Shown here piece after piece: positions 30,933-37,854 of a stretch of DNA of 64,000 nucleotides. A program made the position numbers and the translations under genes. The notes beneath the pieces were generated by a model. That model was given only the letters and a program-made list of their open reading frames with translations. It had not been told where the DNA came from and made no database searches. This DNA comes from Flavobacteriaceae bacterium (GTDB lineage: Bacteria > Bacteroidota > Bacteroidia > Flavobacteriales > Flavobacteriaceae), in contig JABGUL010000013.1 of NCBI GenBank assembly GCA_018646605.1, positions 1 through 64,000 of the forward strand, read 5' to 3'. Each line of letters begins with the position of its first letter. Position 1 is the first letter of the stretch.

Positions 30933-32192
30933 TTATGAGGAGGCTAAAGATTTCATTGCTTTTATGAAACTATCTAGTTCATTAGTAGTTGTGAAAACAT
31001 TAGGTGTTATTCTACAGCCCTTAACATTCGCATAATCAATAGCTACGGTAAAAATCTTAAATTCATCGTAAAGTCGTTTTGAAAGAATCTCAGGTTTCAT
31101 ATTAGCAACCCCTACATTTCCAATACCACAGCTTCTTGAATCATCAAAGGAAGTGTTAATCACAATATTAGAAACATCCTTAAGTGCATTTAGCCAATAG
31201 TTTTTGAGAAAGCGTAATCGCTTTTCTTTTCTTTTGACACCTATCCATTGTAAATATTCGATAGCATTTACTATCGCTAGATCGGTATGTACAGGAATGG
31301 TTCCGTTGTGACTATGCCGTTTTATTTTGTTAATATTTTTTTCGTTATCAGCCATTAGGGGCCATAGATTAGGTATTTCGTTATCAGCCACATACAATAA
31401 TCCAGCTCCTAGGGGAGTGGCTAGCCATTTATGAAGACTGGAGCCATAATAATCACAGTTCAATTCCTCAATTTCAAAATCAAAATGACCAATACAGTGT
31501 GCTCCATCCACCAAAACTTTTACTCCATAGCCATGGGCCATATTACATATTTTTTTGACTGGTAAAATATGACCAGTAATATTAATCATATGACTCACCA
31601 TGAGAAGTTTTGTGTTTTTGGTGATTTGGGATTCATACAATGAAACTATTTCTTCATCATTTTTCGGATGGTTGGGGACAGAAACTTTCTTTAGGGTTAC
31701 TTGGTAGCGTTTGGAAATTTGTTCAAACATATCTTGCATGGCACCGTAATCTTGAATAGCAAAGATTGCTTCATCTCCTTGATTCCATGGAAATCCACTA
31801 ATTACTAAGTCCAGCGACTCAGTAGTATTTCTAGTTATAACAAGATTTTCACCTTTGCACCCAACTGTTTTAGCCAACTGATTAGTTATCGTACCCTTGT
31901 CTTCAAAACGGTGTTTCCGCATGTAGTATGAACCTTCTAAATTGACTCTTCTAATATGATTGAAATGATGTTCTAAAGTGGGGGTTGGGATTATATTATA
32001 ATAGCCGCTTTCTAAATTAATAAAGTCAGGATGAAGTTTATATTGACTTCTAACAAGACTCCAGAAATCATCTTCATCTATTGGCTTGACGGGAAAATCA
32101 ATTTGATTTTTAGAATCTAAATCTTTTTTGAAAGGAACTAGCGGAGCTAAAGTTAACGCGCTTAAATTTTTGATGAAAGTTCTTTTTTTCAT
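30933..32192 (-). CDS. Class V aminotransferase with an export-type N-terminus
   Basis: PLP-dependent fold-type I enzyme of about 419 residues, in the isopenicillin-N epimerase/cysteine desulfurase branch. The PLP aspartate and histidine are in KVLVDGAHCIGHFDFEI. The Schiff-base lysine is in YYGSSLHKWLATPLGAGLL (about 255-273), and a phosphate-binding threonine lies in ITRNTTESLDLV. The N-terminus MKKRTFIKNLSALTLAPL contains KRTFIK, close to a Tat motif, so folded export with cofactor is plausible. ATG 32192 is chosen over 32228 for this reason. No Cys suitable for desulfurase activity is evident, so epimerase or lyase activity is more likely; the substrate is unknown. Confidence 0.82.
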   Translation of the reverse strand: MKKRTFIKNLSALTLAPLVPFKKDLDSKNQIDFPVKPIDEDDFWSLVRSQYKLHPDFINLESGYYNIIPTPTLEHHFNHIRRVNLEGSYYMRKHRFEDKGTITNQLAKTVGCKGENLVITRNTTESLDLVISGFPWNQGDEAIFAIQDYGAMQDMFEQISKRYQVTLKKVSVPNHPKNDEEIVSLYESQITKNTKLLMVSHMINITGHILPVKKICNMAHGYGVKVLVDGAHCIGHFDFEIEELNCDYYGSSLHKWLATPLGAGLLYVADNEIPNLWPLMADNEKNINKIKRHSHNGTIPVHTDLAIVNAIEYLQWIGVKRKEKRLRFLKNYWLNALKDVSNIVINTSFDDSRSCGIGNVGVANMKPEILSKRLYDEFKIFTVAIDYANVKGCRITPNVFTTTNELDSFIKAMKSLASS

Positions 32193-32285
32193 AATAATGA
32201 CATTAAAATTAAAGTTACTAAAATTCAACAGAATTTTCAGCTACTAGATTAATTATCTAAAAATTATGATTTAAAATGAGTTAAT

Positions 32286-33182
32286 TCAATAAACACAAGC
32301 TTTAGGATCATCTTTGATGTAATAGGTTTTATAGTTTATAGCTTTTTTGTCCATGCAGCCACATAGATTGAGTAGTTCAATGTTTTTAAAATCAATTGGA
32401 TGACTTTCAGCTTGAAGGGCAATATATCCTTCCTCAATAATTTCACCTTTTCTAGGAATCCATTTATCTTTATTTGATACCCCCATATTATCCCAGTCTT
32501 TTCCTTCTCTGTTTTTGCTGATGAATGCGTCATCTATTTGAGGCGCTTTATATTTCAATACGGTATCGTTTTCTACGATATGCGTGATCGATTCTCCCCC
32601 TAAAATAATTGCTTCCACATGCACCCACTGATCTCCATGGTATGTTTTTGATTGTGATGAAATACAATGTGTAAAATCTAGTTGATCTCTATAGATAACT
32701 GCTGTTCCTGGTGTACATAAATTTGCAGTAGGTCTTTCTTCTTCTCCAAGACCACCCAAAAGTTGAATTTCAATGGATACTGGAAAATGTTGACCATAGG
32801 CATTCGACTGCGCTGATTGCGAATGAATCATCACACCGCTATTTCTATTATTCCATTGCTCTCCTCCTGGAGTTTGATTCCCATTAAAACGGTAATCAAA
32901 ACGTAATTTATAATAAGAATACGGCTGTTTGTAATACATATGCCCGTATTTGTCATCAAAATCATCATACGCATCATAAACAATTCTGATAGCGCCATCC
33001 GATACTTGAAAAGTATTCTTGTAATTTTCGTTTAACGGTCGGTTGGCTATTTTTATAGTCCAATCTTTTAAATCCGATCCGTTGAAAAGTGAAATCCAAT
33101 TTTCTTCTGTAGACGTTTTATTTGGATTTTTTATGCAAGAAAGAAAAAGTATAAATAAGCACAAAGTAAGAATAGGCTTCAT
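32286..33182 (-). CDS. DUF1080 lipoprotein with a C-terminal GCMD-type cysteine motif
   Basis: A 298-residue lipoprotein (MKPILTLCLFILFLSCIKN, lipobox LFLSC) with one DUF1080/LamG-like sandwich: WISLFNGSDLKDWTIKI at the N-terminus, NRNSGVMIHSQS (about 110-121) and IALQAESHPIDFKNIELLNL at the end of the domain. After that comes CGCMDKKAINYKTYYIKDD ending ACVY. This resembles the GCxDxxAxNYxxxAxxDDGSC motif repeated in many Bacteroidota surface proteins. It lies just outside the island boundary at 33259 and is transcribed leftwards. Probable surface glycan-binding or 3-keto-glycoside hydrolase role. Confidence 0.83.
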   Translation of the reverse strand: MKPILTLCLFILFLSCIKNPNKTSTEENWISLFNGSDLKDWTIKIANRPLNENYKNTFQVSDGAIRIVYDAYDDFDDKYGHMYYKQPYSYYKLRFDYRFNGNQTPGGEQWNNRNSGVMIHSQSAQSNAYGQHFPVSIEIQLLGGLGEEERPTANLCTPGTAVIYRDQLDFTHCISSQSKTYHGDQWVHVEAIILGGESITHIVENDTVLKYKAPQIDDAFISKNREGKDWDNMGVSNKDKWIPRKGEIIEEGYIALQAESHPIDFKNIELLNLCGCMDKKAINYKTYYIKDDPKACVY

Positions 33183-33258: not shown

Positions 33259-33276
33259 TTATTTTCCGATACAGAA
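33259..33276 (-). other. Distal attachment-site copy (duplicate of mnmE 3' end)
   Basis: On the minus strand these 18 bases read TTCTGTATCGGAAAATAA. They match the last codons of mnmE (36454-36471) at 16 of 18 positions, and both differences are synonymous (Ile ATT/ATC, stop TGA/TAA). It therefore encodes FCIGK-stop, a bare copy of the MnmE C-terminus with no upstream mnmE sequence. This is the expected outer boundary of an element integrated at mnmE. Confidence 0.7.
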
Positions 33277-33319
33277 TATTACAATTTACATTACTGGTTT
33301 ACATTTCCCATCTTTCATA

Positions 33320-33472
33320 TCAAATTATCATAATTATTGAGTCATATTTTTTGGGAGTTTTACCCCAACTGTAACCTCCATATTTTACCCAAGAATCTGA
33401 GTTCTTTATATTATCCGTAATAACGCTAACAGCTTCTCGGACTACCTTGCTACGTTTAAGAAGATACTGCGT
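33320..33472 (-). pseudogene. Start-less coding remnant, 50 codons
   Basis: An open minus-strand frame from just after a TGA (33473-33475) to TGA at 33320-33322. The translation has coherent protein-like composition: KRSKVVREAVSVITDN, then SDSWVKYGGYSWGKTPKKYD. There is no ATG, GTG or TTG at its beginning, and the only ATG is near its end. I read it as the surviving 3' end of a gene lost from the island. I do not recognise the family. Confidence 0.4.
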
Positions 33473-33535
33473 TCAATTGATTAATAAACTGACTGTTACA
33501 TAATTCTCACTTATTTAATACTGATTATCAATTAG

Positions 33536-34255
33536 TTAGATAATTTCATCTTCAATTATTTTAATCAAGTTTACCACCATATCTTTTTGTTCATTTAGGA
33601 AATTTATTGAGGTGTCTCTGTACCCAATTGATAAATCAAATGCATTGTGAAAATTATTACTTGCATTCAATTTTTTGATGGAATATTGCATCTCTTCTTG
33701 AGAATGACTATTTACCCTAACCAAAGGGCTAACACTATTTACATATAATAGTTGTAAAGTCTCTCCAAACTTTGTTTGAACTTCTTTGAAATAAGAAGTT
33801 TTCTCATAATATTCAAGAAGCATTATTTTAATGATTTTATTTTTAATTATACCATTAGATATAACCAAGTTATTTCGTTCTACATTTTTACTAAGTGGTG
33901 TGAGAATTGGAAAGGCTGTTATTGAGCGGTTTAAAATCTTAGTTTCACTCTCATTAAGAGTGTTGTTATTGAGTAAAAATATTCCATTTTTTATGAGATC
34001 ATTTATCTCTGAAAACTGTGCAATCTTATTATTTATATTGTCTAAATCTTCGTTCAATTCTTCAAGAAGACTTACTAAAAACCTTCCTTGCTCTTCTTTA
34101 AATTTTCTAGATTCATTCCAATTATTAGCTTGAATAGCTATTGAAATTCCAATAAAAACTAATAAAATTTCTTGAACTGCATATTTAAAAGTCTTCATTT
34201 TAGAATTCTGTTTTATTAATAAATTAAACCAATTTTTAGAAGGTTTTTTGTTCAA
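33536..34255 (-). CDS. DUF6090-like single-pass membrane protein
   Basis: A 239-residue protein with one strong N-terminal membrane helix followed by NNWNESRK, the signature turn of DUF6090 proteins that are abundant in Flavobacteriaceae (about residues 26-52: QEILLVFIGISIAIQANNWN). The rest is a helical, charged domain with EEQGRFLVSLLEELNEDLDN-like coiled-coil character. Function is unknown. ATG at 34198 (MKTFKYAVQE) is an alternative start; the longer one gives the basic leader common in the family. It lies within the mnmE island. Confidence 0.7.
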   Translation of the reverse strand: MNKKPSKNWFNLLIKQNSKMKTFKYAVQEILLVFIGISIAIQANNWNESRKFKEEQGRFLVSLLEELNEDLDNINNKIAQFSEINDLIKNGIFLLNNNTLNESETKILNRSITAFPILTPLSKNVERNNLVISNGIIKNKIIKIMLLEYYEKTSYFKEVQTKFGETLQLLYVNSVSPLVRVNSHSQEEMQYSIKKLNASNNFHNAFDLSIGYRDTSINFLNEQKDMVVNLIKIIEDEII

Positions 34256-34578
34256 ATAAATATATGAAATTTAAAATATTAAAACCTTTGATTTTCTGAA
34301 TCCAGATACCTCAACTCAAGTAGTATTCATTTTACGTTAAATTATTTTATTTAAACTTGAAGATTATTTTAATTGTATGATTTTCCATCACGTATCCCCA
34401 CAAATCCAAGTACTTAATTAATAAAAAAAGTCAAGTCATCACTTACTTCATTTGTAGCTTATTTTACTCTTGGTAAAGAGCATTGTAAATCTTACTGAAC
34501 AAATGCCTGTGGTTAAAAGAAAACGCCTCTAAATGTGATTGGTGATGTTAGTATTTAAAGGTTGCATTGTAATTTTGA
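34256..34578. other. Intergenic spacer inside the mnmE island
   Basis: About 320 AT-rich bases without a coding frame I can support on either strand. No clear terminator, tRNA or inverted repeat. A spacer this long is unusual in this window, where gaps are mostly under 50 bases. Confidence 0.5.
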
Positions 34579-35988
34579 TTAGTTACAATTTGTAGAATAA
34601 GTTGTACCTTCATCTACTACCCAAGAGGATGAGATTTCATAGTTTCTTGGAAAAAAATCTTCTTCTATCCACGCTGCGTTGTCATAACAAGATTCTTCTT
34701 CTTGATCAGTATTGTTTGGCAATCCTAAATCTGAGCAACTTGGTGGTATTGCATTTATCTGTGCTTCACTCAAAGTGACACAGCTAATCTGATTTCCGGT
34801 TGCTCTTAACCAAAGTAAATTTTCCAGAGGTGATACATCTAATTCATTTAATTGATTTCCTTCGATAGCCAAGTACTGAACTTTAGGATTATTTGAAAAG
34901 TTAATCCCAGTTAATTGATTATTACTCAAATCTGCACGTTCTAGCTTCACTGATGTACTCAAATTAACGATTTGTTGCAATCTATTGCTTCCTAATCCTA
35001 AAACTTTTAGACTTGAGTTTATTGGGAGTATAATTTCACCACCATTAGAATCATTTAAAACATTCCAGGCAACTAAATATTCAAGCTTTGACAAATGGCT
35101 TAGATCAAGCTCTTTCAATTGACCATCCCAAATTCGCAAGTTGAAAATATTGGGTGAATTTTTAAGGTCATAGCTCTCGATTCTATTATTGTGAGTGGTA
35201 AGTGAATACAAGTTTGGAGAATTCGATATTTCCAATTTTTCTAAGGTATATGTTGCGTAAATCCAAAGGTTTTCGAGTGCAGGGTTATTGTTTAAGTATA
35301 ACTCTGTAATTGGATTAAATGGCAGGTCTATATTGACCAATTTAGTATTGTATGACAAATCTAACACCCCGGAAATTTGATTTCTAGCAGCACTAATTCC
35401 CTCAAGATTTTTAAACTCCTCAATTCCAACTAGAGCATTGATGTTTCTGTCACTAGCATTCAGATAACCAACTCTGGCTATGGAAGAGGTCAGTACAAAA
35501 TTATCTACCACATCATCTAAGCCTTCCTCAATTAGGAGTTTTTCAAATTCCAAATCTGCGATATAGGTTTTGTTCTCTTCGTAAGTCTCGTCTTTGCTTC
35601 CTTCTAAGTCGTTTTGACAATTTCCTTCTAAATTAAGAGTAAAACTTATTTCAGATCCGCTCACTTGAATATTAGTTAATTCTCCTAATTTCAATCCTTG
35701 ATTGTTTGCTAAAGAGATGTTTTCATCTGAAATGACCTGATAACTTCCAAGAAGTATTCCATTATCAGCAGTATAAATTTTAAAGGTAAAGTCACTGTTC
35801 AAAATGAGATCGGTCACATCACATTCACTTTTTTTAGAGGAAGAAACCCCTGCTTTTTTCTTTATTTTCCATTTCCCCACACCTAGAAAAATATCCTGTT
35901 CCAAATCTATGAGTTGTTCTTTTTCTGAACAACTATTGAAAACTGCTAGAAACAAGATCGTTAAAATAAAATATATTCTCAAGTGCAT
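34579..35988 (-). CDS. Leucine-rich-repeat lipoprotein with lipocalin-like N-terminal domain
   Basis: A 469-residue surface lipoprotein: signal MHLRIYFILTILFLAVFNSC ends in a lipobox cysteine. Residues about 30-140 resemble the lipocalin-like domain of Bacteroidota lipoproteins (VGKWKIKKKAG, LGSYQVISDENISL). From about 165 to 420 there are degenerate leucine-rich repeats with LxxLxLxxN spacing, for example LEGISAARNQISGVLDLSYN and LERADLSNNQLTGINFSNNP. The C-terminal segment contains SCYDNAAWIEEDFF and ends in Cys-Asn. The role is probably binding at the cell surface. A frame opens seven codons earlier at 36009; the signal peptide decides the start. It is the largest gene in the mnmE island. 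Confidence 0.82.
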   Translation of the reverse strand: MHLRIYFILTILFLAVFNSCSEKEQLIDLEQDIFLGVGKWKIKKKAGVSSSKKSECDVTDLILNSDFTFKIYTADNGILLGSYQVISDENISLANNQGLKLGELTNIQVSGSEISFTLNLEGNCQNDLEGSKDETYEENKTYIADLEFEKLLIEEGLDDVVDNFVLTSSIARVGYLNASDRNINALVGIEEFKNLEGISAARNQISGVLDLSYNTKLVNIDLPFNPITELYLNNNPALENLWIYATYTLEKLEISNSPNLYSLTTHNNRIESYDLKNSPNIFNLRIWDGQLKELDLSHLSKLEYLVAWNVLNDSNGGEIILPINSSLKVLGLGSNRLQQIVNLSTSVKLERADLSNNQLTGINFSNNPKVQYLAIEGNQLNELDVSPLENLLWLRATGNQISCVTLSEAQINAIPPSCSDLGLPNNTDQEEESCYDNAAWIEEDFFPRNYEISSSWVVDEGTTYSTNCN

Positions 35989-36119
35989 TAAAAAAAATGA
36001 GTCGCTCATAATTAAGTGATTGAGTACTTAAAATTTGTCTTATATAGATATAGTAAAAACAAAATGACCTTTAGTTTTACAAACTTAATTAATTGATCAA
36101 AAAACTATAAATCAAAGAT

Positions 36120-36251
36120 ATGGGAAGAACAGCAGGAACGCCTAATAAAATAACAGCAGAAGTAAAAGAAAAATTAGAGAGTCTTATTGACGGAGTAGTA
36201 GGTTTGTTAGACATTAGCGAAATGAACACGAACCAAAGGATTTGCTATTGA
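36120..36251 (+). CDS. Short GTPNK ORF, probably a truncated mobile-element gene
   Basis: ATG 36120 to TGA 36251, 43 residues beginning MGRTAGTPNKITAEVKEKLE and ending EMNTNQRICY. Small proteins opening with a basic 'xGTPNK' segment recur in Bacteroidota phage and mobile-element contexts; those I recall continue after the NQRI position. Here the reading frame stops two codons later, and the +1 frame stays open for another 18 codons to the 11-bp repeat at 36291, consistent with a frameshifted 3' end. It is the only plus-strand ORF in the island. Confidence 0.45.
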   Translation: MGRTAGTPNKITAEVKEKLESLIDGVVGLLDISEMNTNQRICY

Positions 36252-36290
36252 TTTTTATTCCTATTGTATTGCAGATTTACCTTTGTCTAT

Positions 36291-36348
36291 TTTACATTAC
36301 TGATGTCCATATTTACATTACTAAATGATAATATTAATGTGAATGTAA
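36291..36348. repeat. Repeated TTTACATTACT sites beside the mnmE attachment site
   Basis: TTTACATTACT occurs at 36291-36301 and 36312-36322, 21 bases apart start to start, with an inverted partial copy (AATGTAA, 36342-36348). The same 11-mer occurs at 33285-33295, nine bases inside the distal attachment copy. Repeats inside both ends of an integrated element resemble arm-type integrase binding sites. Confidence 0.5.
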
Positions 36349-36453
36349 TGCAAATTTGATGAAAAATAATGAAGATTAATGAATCCTAATAAAGTATTAA
36401 GTATTGTATTTACTAGGTTTATTGTGGATTGATGTGGTTAAATGAAAAAGATA

Positions 36454-36471
36454 TCATTTTCCAATACAGAA
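36454..36471 (-). other. Attachment site at the mnmE 3' end
   Basis: The last 18 bases of mnmE, TTCTGTATTGGAAAATGA on the minus strand, encoding FCIGK-stop. They are duplicated at 33259-33276 with two synonymous changes. The gene end is intact, so integration would have been neutral for MnmE. Confidence 0.65.
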
Positions 36472-37854
36472 CTGCCCAAAAATAGTTCCTAAAATATCCT
36501 CATCGGTATCAATCTTTCCGGTGATACTTCCTATATGAAATATAGTTTCTTTTAATTCTACACTTAAAAGATCTCCAGGGATATCATTTTTGATCCCATC
36601 CATGACCACTTCCAATGATTCTAAAGCTTGTGTTAAGGCATGAAAATGTCGAGTGTTATTTACGATAACAGTGGAATTATTTCCTATCGTTTGAATGGTT
36701 TTGACTAGATGTTTTTTAAGGGGTTCTAAAAATTGCTCATCTAGTGTAGATATTCCCATTCCATGAACAGATGCGCCTTCCTGAATTGTGTTCAATAACC
36801 TCTGATTGAAATCGGTATCAAATCCATTTATTGATTGATCAATTTTATTTTCAATCAAAACAATATTTAAATTATCATGCTGAAGTGTTTTTACTTCTTT
36901 TGAAAGTTCCTGAAAATCAGTTGTTCTTTCATATAGGTAGAGTAGCAGTGTGGCCTGATTGATTTTGTCTTTTGCTTTTTTAACTCCCATAGCCTCTACA
37001 ACATCTTTGGTTTCTCTTAAACCAGCGGTATCAATAAATCGAAAACTAATCCCTTCAATAATTAATGTATCCTCAATTAGATCTCGTGTCGTTCCAGGAA
37101 TATCTGAAACGATGGCTTTCTCCTCTTTAAACAGTGCGTTGAGAAGAGAAGATTTTCCAGCATTAGGTTTTCCTGCTATGGCAACAGGAACTCCTTTTTT
37201 GATGACATTCCCATATGCAAAGGATAACTTTAAGGTATTTATGTCCTTGTGTAAAGCGCGTAATAATTGGCTGAGTTGATCTTTATTTGCAAAGTTGACC
37301 TCTTCTTCACTAAAGTCAAGTTCAAGCTCAATGAGGGCCTTAAACTGAATGAGTTGCTGACGTAACTCTTCCATATTTTGTGAAAAACCACCTCGCATTT
37401 GTTGCATAGCAATTGTGTGGGCAGCTTCATTCTCGGAGGCAATGATATCTGCAACCGCTTCAGCTTGACTCAAGTCCATTTTTTTATTTAAATAGGCTCT
37501 GAGTGTAAATTCTCCAGCTTGAGCTGGTAAAATACCTTCCCCTAAAAAGGATGTGATTATTTTTTGTTGAATATAAGACGAACCATGACAAGAAATTTCA
37601 ACAACATCTTCTCCGGTATAGGAATGAGGTCCTTTAAAAAAAGTAATTAGAACTTCATCTATCAGTTGGTTACCTACTTTAAAATCTCCTAAAAAAGTAG
37701 TGTTAGGAATAATTTCATTCCAACTTTTCTTAGATTTAGTATGAATAAAATAAGCTGCCTTTTCTATCGCTAATAGTCCAGAAAGACGAATGACACCTAT
37801 AGCACCACTCCCTTGTGGCGTGGATAGAGCAATAATGGTTCCTTCGCTGAGCAT
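36454..37854 (-). CDS. mnmE: tRNA uridine-5-carboxymethylaminomethyl GTPase MnmE
   Basis: GTPase that, with MnmG, installs the cmnm5 modification at U34 of several tRNAs. The 466-residue protein has the N-terminal folate-binding domain (IALSTPQGSGAIGVIRLSG), the helical domain with LTLRAYLNKKMDLSQAEAV-like FTLRAYLNKK at about 116-125, and the inserted G domain. In that domain are GKPNAGKSSLLNALF (about 225-239), SDIPGTTRD, DTAGLRETKD and IENKID. It ends with the catalytic CIGK. Its 3' end is the apparent insertion point of the island. Confidence 0.97.
   Translation of the reverse strand: MLSEGTIIALSTPQGSGAIGVIRLSGLLAIEKAAYFIHTKSKKSWNEIIPNTTFLGDFKVGNQLIDEVLITFFKGPHSYTGEDVVEISCHGSSYIQQKIITSFLGEGILPAQAGEFTLRAYLNKKMDLSQAEAVADIIASENEAAHTIAMQQMRGGFSQNMEELRQQLIQFKALIELELDFSEEEVNFANKDQLSQLLRALHKDINTLKLSFAYGNVIKKGVPVAIAGKPNAGKSSLLNALFKEEKAIVSDIPGTTRDLIEDTLIIEGISFRFIDTAGLRETKDVVEAMGVKKAKDKINQATLLLYLYERTTDFQELSKEVKTLQHDNLNIVLIENKIDQSINGFDTDFNQRLLNTIQEGASVHGMGISTLDEQFLEPLKKHLVKTIQTIGNNSTVIVNNTRHFHALTQALESLEVVMDGIKNDIPGDLLSVELKETIFHIGSITGKIDTDEDILGTIFGQFCIGK

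Follow-up and report, generated by a model that had tools for sequence, protein, structure and literature searches.

The segment that follows mnmE in this Flavobacteriaceae bacterium is closed at its far end by a second copy of the last 18 bases of the gene, and raises the question of whether it is a mobile genomic island and, if so, whether it ever encoded its own recombinase. The stretch analysed (hereafter the window) comprises 64,000 nucleotides of contig JABGUL010000013.1 of assembly GCA_018646605.1 (1.98 Mb, 44 contigs, 98% complete). The interval between the two copies is very probably a decayed island inserted at mnmE, its integrase inactivated, in which two cargo genes are still open, one encoding a leucine-rich repeat (LRR) protein and the other a DUF6090-like protein. 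Comparisons were performed against a genus-level set of 38 genomes and a wider order-level set of 395 genomes, individual genomes being cited by number (G012, for example).

On the minus strand, the final 18 bases of mnmE (36454-36471) read TTCTGTATTGGAAAATGA and those of the second copy (33259-33276) read TTCTGTATCGGAAAATAA, in the same orientation and with 16 of 18 bases identical. The two differences, at base 9 and at the middle base of the stop codon, are silent, so that the duplicated mnmE end announced by the original prediction, with FCIGK-stop in both copies, was recovered as described. The copies are offset by 3,195 bp and separated by 3,177 bp. Recurrence was searched for using a degenerate codon pattern for FCIGK-stop (TTYTGYATHGGNAARTRR), with the reversed pattern as a control: the search of the whole assembly that had been proposed returned exact matches at the two known places only, and the control gave 3 matches in total over the 38 genus genomes. 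In a chance model of 400 simulated 10-kb sequences (trinucleotide content kept, one strand, up to 2 mismatches allowed), a single match was obtained, or roughly 0.0025 per 10 kb, and in 11 relatives, each scanned with its own mnmE end, no secondary match came closer than 4-7 mismatches. On these sequence grounds the repeat reads as an attL/attR pair, beyond chance.

The evidence on the recombinase comes from the left end. Beside mnmE, about 220 bp hold no long open reading frame (ORF) and form a leader, which shares 88.7% identity with the congener G012 (247 bp, core included), compared with just 68.3% for the mnmE DNA of the same two genomes; a leader far more alike than mnmE fits a transfer of the element between species. 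BLAST searches of the 38 genus genomes with this leader returned the window itself, G012, G009 and a 26-bp match in G017, and nothing else. In G012 the leader runs into an integrase frame, which is cut after 220 codons by the contig end. The window follows this frame for 26 codons, with two in-frame TAG codons, and then diverges (comparison run with composition correction off); inside the interval, nothing more of an integrase was found past this N-terminal stub except chance-level matches. An integrase start in the usual place, interrupted by stop codons, favours a remnant of an integrase-bearing island. The earlier statement that no recombinase is present is thus right as far as an intact integrase gene is concerned, and had overlooked the start of one at 36233-36310 (minus strand). 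Most likely the element once carried its own integrase and has since lost it: the recombinase would have been destroyed, rather than never possessed.

Arm-like sites were also sought, using a motif picked by eye before counting. The motif TTTACATTAC is present, on either strand, in 3 copies in the window (36291, 36312 and 33285), each at most 200 bp inside a core, and the octamer TTTACATT/AATGTAAA in 9 copies, 4 of them within 200 bp inside the cores. Both ends of the G012 element and the attL of G009 are enriched for the same octamer relative to 500 shuffles. Integrases of the window lineage follow mnmE in G009 (contig-cut after 117 codons), G026 (frameshifted, its piece matching Phage_int_SAM_5 and Phage_integrase) and G003 (which lacks the 5' part).

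Islands with an integrase directly after mnmE are found elsewhere in Flavobacteriales, in G031 (425 amino acids), G048 (382), G082 (364) and G365 (397), as well as in G086 (310 amino acids to the contig end) and G311 (split in two frames). Core-to-core lengths are 7.1 kb in G365, 21 kb in G048, 26 kb in G311 and 31 kb in G082, where a one-mismatch core lies inside the 31 kb; G249 shows tandem units of 32 and 24 kb, the 3.1 kb next to mnmE being free of an integrase, and in G015 an integrase-like sequence is weakly matched (E 7e-4) just past a one-mismatch core. The 7.1-kb island of G365 is complete. Its integrase has Arm-DNA-bind_5, SAM_5 and catalytic domains, and is followed by HTH_17 (weak AlpA) and REP_ORF2-G2P genes, lipoprotein and LRR cargo, a DUF5681 protein and attR; about 75 bp beyond this attR repeat the left leader of the same island at 93%. 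Integrases of the window lineage (G012, G009, G026) share 23-30% identity with those of the other mnmE islands. At E<=1e-15, the lineage was detected in 2 of the 395 order genomes; it has two loci in genome contigs, one being that of G026, and none was confirmed in viral contigs. Distant matches were obtained to 17 plasmid and 13 phage records, all below 60% identity.

The comparison of the mnmE downstream region between relatives, which the original prediction had called for, bears out the use of this site: islands that carry an integrase are inserted at the same 18 bp, and three empty/occupied pairs fit. The sequence after mnmE in G018 corresponds from the first base to that after the distal core of G031 (89.7% over 351 bp), and the sequence after mnmE in G046 to that beyond the distal core in G086 (93.8% over 64 bp) and in G394 (85.7% over 63 bp). 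The distal core of G012 lies on a separate contig, where aminotransferase-like, Kazal-like and PCD genes come after it.

In elements related to SGI1, the element is described as the source of the last 9 bp of attL, for which two sequences were seen, and the host as the source of the last 9 bp of attR (PMC9035990). By this rule, the host end in the window would be TTCTGTATT followed by GGAAAATAA, and the element core TTCTGTATC followed by GGAAAATGA, this whole core being identical to the attL core of G012. A TGA end is present in all 7 loci assigned to the left end of this lineage (the window, G012, G009, G026 and G003, with G029 and G021 assigned by alignment only), and in only 2 of the 23 other genus loci listed (G007 and G018). 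This tally leaves out G036, G016 C11 and G020, in which contigs end before the core, within 7 codons of the mnmE 3' end, as might be expected of a site that varies within populations.

The following course of events can be proposed. The element would have inserted at the last 18 bp of mnmE by means of its own tyrosine integrase, with the crossover presumably inside the core. By analogy with SGI1, this insertion would have exchanged the last 9 bp of mnmE for the 9 bp of the element, which still encode GK-stop, and left the original 9 bp of the host at the far end as attR. A rearrangement may then have brought the integrase stub up against part of a small gene in inverted orientation, and the rest of the integrase, with any excisionase and replication genes, would have been lost, the two cargo genes staying open.

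Several observations weigh against this reading. The leaders of G026, G003, G021 and G029 are too diverged to be detected by BLAST with the window leader, their relation to it resting on integrase matches (G026, G003) or on a MAFFT alignment, and arm-like enrichment is absent from the attL of G026. The integrase of G365, which serves as the complete model, is only 29% identical to the G026 piece. No near-identical empty site for the window itself was found among the relatives, and G025 has the neighbouring hydrolase gene together with a different filling of 1.35 kb and no second core. Finally, the attR of the window is without a small-gene remnant of the kind usual there.

The interior (Table 1) has 29.7% G + C between the cores, compared with 34.7% for the window, and the unusually large spacers noted previously are real, 32% of the interval lying outside the two long ORFs. 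The small-gene fragment that abuts the integrase stub has intact relatives in the own genome (contig C10) and in G031, 147 bp inside attR, and gave no match in phages. Small genes end 144-177 bp inside attR in 4 of the 20 distal cores examined, the one in G031 being of the window's kind and those in G365, G105 and G372 of the DUF5681 type; no such gene was seen in the other 16 (three with less than 1 kb of inner sequence). Both types match phrog_15261 at E 0.009-0.04, which makes for a weak link.

Table 1. Features of the mnmE-associated interval and its flanks (window coordinates)
Feature	Position	Strand	Basis
Host flank: aminotransferase-like gene, follows mnmE in relatives	30933-32228	-	
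Host flank: 3-keto-disaccharide hydrolase-like gene	32286-33182	-	
attR core, second mnmE end	33259..33276	-	FCIGK-stop
Arm-like repeats inside attR: TTTACATTAC at 33285, TTTACATT at 33298	33285..33305	.	Motif count
DUF6090-like protein, 239 aa, open	33536..34255	-	23.3 bits, just under the 23.5 cut-off
Degenerate dispersed-repeat copy (3' part, same family as the small gene at 36120..36252), between the two cargo genes	34399..34533	-	
LRR protein, 476 aa, lipoprotein-like start, open	34579..36009	-	LRR models below curated cut-offs; phrog_7816 E 1.5e-25
Small-gene 5' fragment (MGRTAGTPNKIT...), inverted relative to mnmE, abuts integrase stub	36120..36252	+	
Tyrosine integrase stub: truncated after codon 26, with two in-frame TAG	36233..36310	-	69% identity to G012 residues 1-26, E 1e-5
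attL leader of the element, common to G012	36233..36453	-	88.7% identity over 247 bp including core
Two arm-like TTTACATTAC repeats inside attL (36291, 36312)	36291..36321	.	Motif count
attL core, final 18 bases of mnmE (gene 36454-37854)	36454..36471	-	FCIGK-stop

Only the left end may derive from a decayed integrase-bearing element, the LRR and DUF6090-like genes having arrived by other insertions; such a composite origin takes the repeat between the cargo genes as the mark of a second, unrelated mobile or recombining element. It is consistent with the recurrence of this repeat (34399-34533) behind genes elsewhere in the genome, with the different G + C contents of the LRR gene (33.5%) and the DUF6090-like gene (25.8%), and with DUF6090-like genes following mnmE in G025 (by reading frames) and G006 as well. 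However, the complete G365 island includes an LRR cargo gene that also matches phrog_7816 (31% identity with the window LRR protein over 115 residues), which makes the LRR gene a normal passenger, and we regard the composite origin as unlikely, if still worth weighing.

The dispersed repeat itself is the 3' portion of a small gene, about 70 codons long and intact at C10:79-309. Copies lie behind gene 3' ends at C25:42246-46091 (four copies), C44:61-196, C21:10626-10736 and C12:112-194; several begin at a similar point of the gene, resembling an attachment-site duplication, and several contigs end inside the repeat. An integron reading of 34399-34533, considered in view of the copies behind genes in C25, was rejected, the repeat being part of a small protein gene that is intact at C10.

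Another explanation is that of a cargo element that never had an integrase and was placed, and possibly is still moved, in trans. The interval does lack an intact integrase, the recombinases found in the assembly are only XerC/XerD-like, and integrase-free core-to-core units occur in G039 (632 and 988 bp) and G011 (2.4 and 3.1 kb), in which a panel of integrase pieces gave no match. An origin without integrase is nevertheless contradicted by the stub, which stands at the usual place with the element's own leader, and we consider this explanation very improbable. The island and its mnmE attachment site being supported, it is the remnant that is favoured among the three origins first offered (a remnant, a cargo element mobilised in trans, or one end of a deleted larger island), and the element may still be mobile in trans today.

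The decayed island is unable to move by itself. Two Phage_integrase matches only were found in the own assembly, XerD- and XerC-like (best models just under or below strict cut-offs), and both were rejected as a helper integrase, which could be missing from an assembly in 44 contigs. The leader was also used to look for an attP contig in the 38 genus genomes, a weak test, and none was found. The G039 and G011 units may have arisen by deletion, or may be cassettes that are moved in trans. The inner flank TTTACT of G039 is common to the islands of G365 and G086 and was found at 8 places in 7 of the 395 genomes; among these, only the G365 contig showed an integrase as well. A broader and rather doubtful proposal is that the mnmE end of Flavobacteriales acts as a cassette dock, where integrase-free units, down to a single gene, build up as tandem arrays and are mobilised in trans by the integrases of fuller islands sharing their ends; it would cover the units of G039 (0.63 and 0.99 kb) and G011 (2.4 and 3.1 kb), and possibly the 3.2 kb of the window.

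That the mnmE end was merely duplicated locally, or recurs by chance, with no mobile element involved, might be suggested by the repetition of only about 20 bp and by a G038 repeat that continues for about 60 bp beyond the core and looks more like a plain duplication, but is scarcely credible given the chance expectation of about 0.0025, the common leader, the integrase stub, and the occupied and empty sites in relatives. The region from 0 to 4.3 kb past mnmE in G038 (L077) encodes, between two mnmE ends, a 1,248-residue protein in which a P-loop NTPase motif is apparent on reading the sequence, and which may serve in defence.

Also in favour of the island, the distance between mnmE and the aminotransferase-like gene varies in 8 other genus loci, from 61 bp (G014) to 9,370 bp (G003). 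In G003 (L047), a sugar/acid-metabolism-like cluster (dehydrogenase-, enolase- and transporter-like genes by eye) occupies 2.0-10.1 kb, between the 5'-truncated integrase and the aminotransferase-like gene, and no second core was found there. The same small genes, for a BspA-like repeat protein and a lipoprotein, lie beside mnmE in the congeners G011 (L051), G015 (L048) and G016 (L129), in varying order, as if drawn from a common gene pool. An FCIGK-stop core is also present in G016 at C2:276373-276390 (L176), far from mnmE on its contig and preceded by dispersed-repeat-like sequence, and is possibly a secondary insertion site; a further candidate at C9:42 of the same genome was discarded, as it proved to be the true end of mnmE, on a contig that overlaps.

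Among known systems, the closest in site are the trmE (mnmE, thdF) islands of Gammaproteobacteria, SGI1 and MGIVchHai6-like elements, for which 18-bp direct repeats, an integrase beside the gene and tandem islands are described (PMC9035990, PMC3285670, PMC7449626). The insertion site, the 18-bp repeats at the mnmE 3' end, the place of the integrase beside the gene and the occurrence of tandem islands are shared, whereas the hosts here are Bacteroidota and the window element is of 3.2 kb and has lost its integrase. This kinship is that of a class defined by its site, the comparison being one of sites rather than of Int or of the SGI1 backbone (described as xis, mpsA/B, traN/G/H and AcaCD regulation; PMC9035990). 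As regards the features of the class, the window has the 18-bp direct repeats, the integrase next to attL is present only as a stub with two stops, and precise insertion is documented for the class by the empty sites in relatives. The Arm-DNA-bind_5/SAM_5 islands of Flavobacteriales (G365, G082, G048, G086, G311, G031) have the same core, with the integrase after mnmE, but their integrase is present (in two frames in G311, cut by a contig end in G086), and the window lineage is only distantly similar to them. Compared with phage satellites (PICI-like), G365 has the integrase, the HTH_17 and the REP_ORF2-G2P genes, and no terminase model was matched, its attR-proximal gene matching DUF5681 and PHROGs of unknown function. 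The short integrase-free tandem units of G039 and G011, between repeated sites, are analogous to integron cassettes, except that the repeated site is the mnmE end and not attC; the own genome yielded no integron integrase, both matches being Xer-like, and no dedicated attC search was made. No description of mnmE islands in Bacteroidota was found in the open-access literature, subscription papers lying outside the scope of the search.

The window element is best read as a decayed member of a known, site-defined kind of island, previously described from gammaproteobacteria. The 18-bp docking site of the SGI1 type at mnmE is also an island hotspot in Flavobacteriales, where the 9-bp ends of the elements keep the C-terminus of MnmE unchanged, and an island that seems to be free of integrase can be a decayed integrase-bearing one. 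If the cassette dock were true, it would constitute an integron-like accretion system founded on a housekeeping gene's stop codon. The complete 7.1-kb relative and the integrase-free mini-elements offer material for testing mobilisation in trans.

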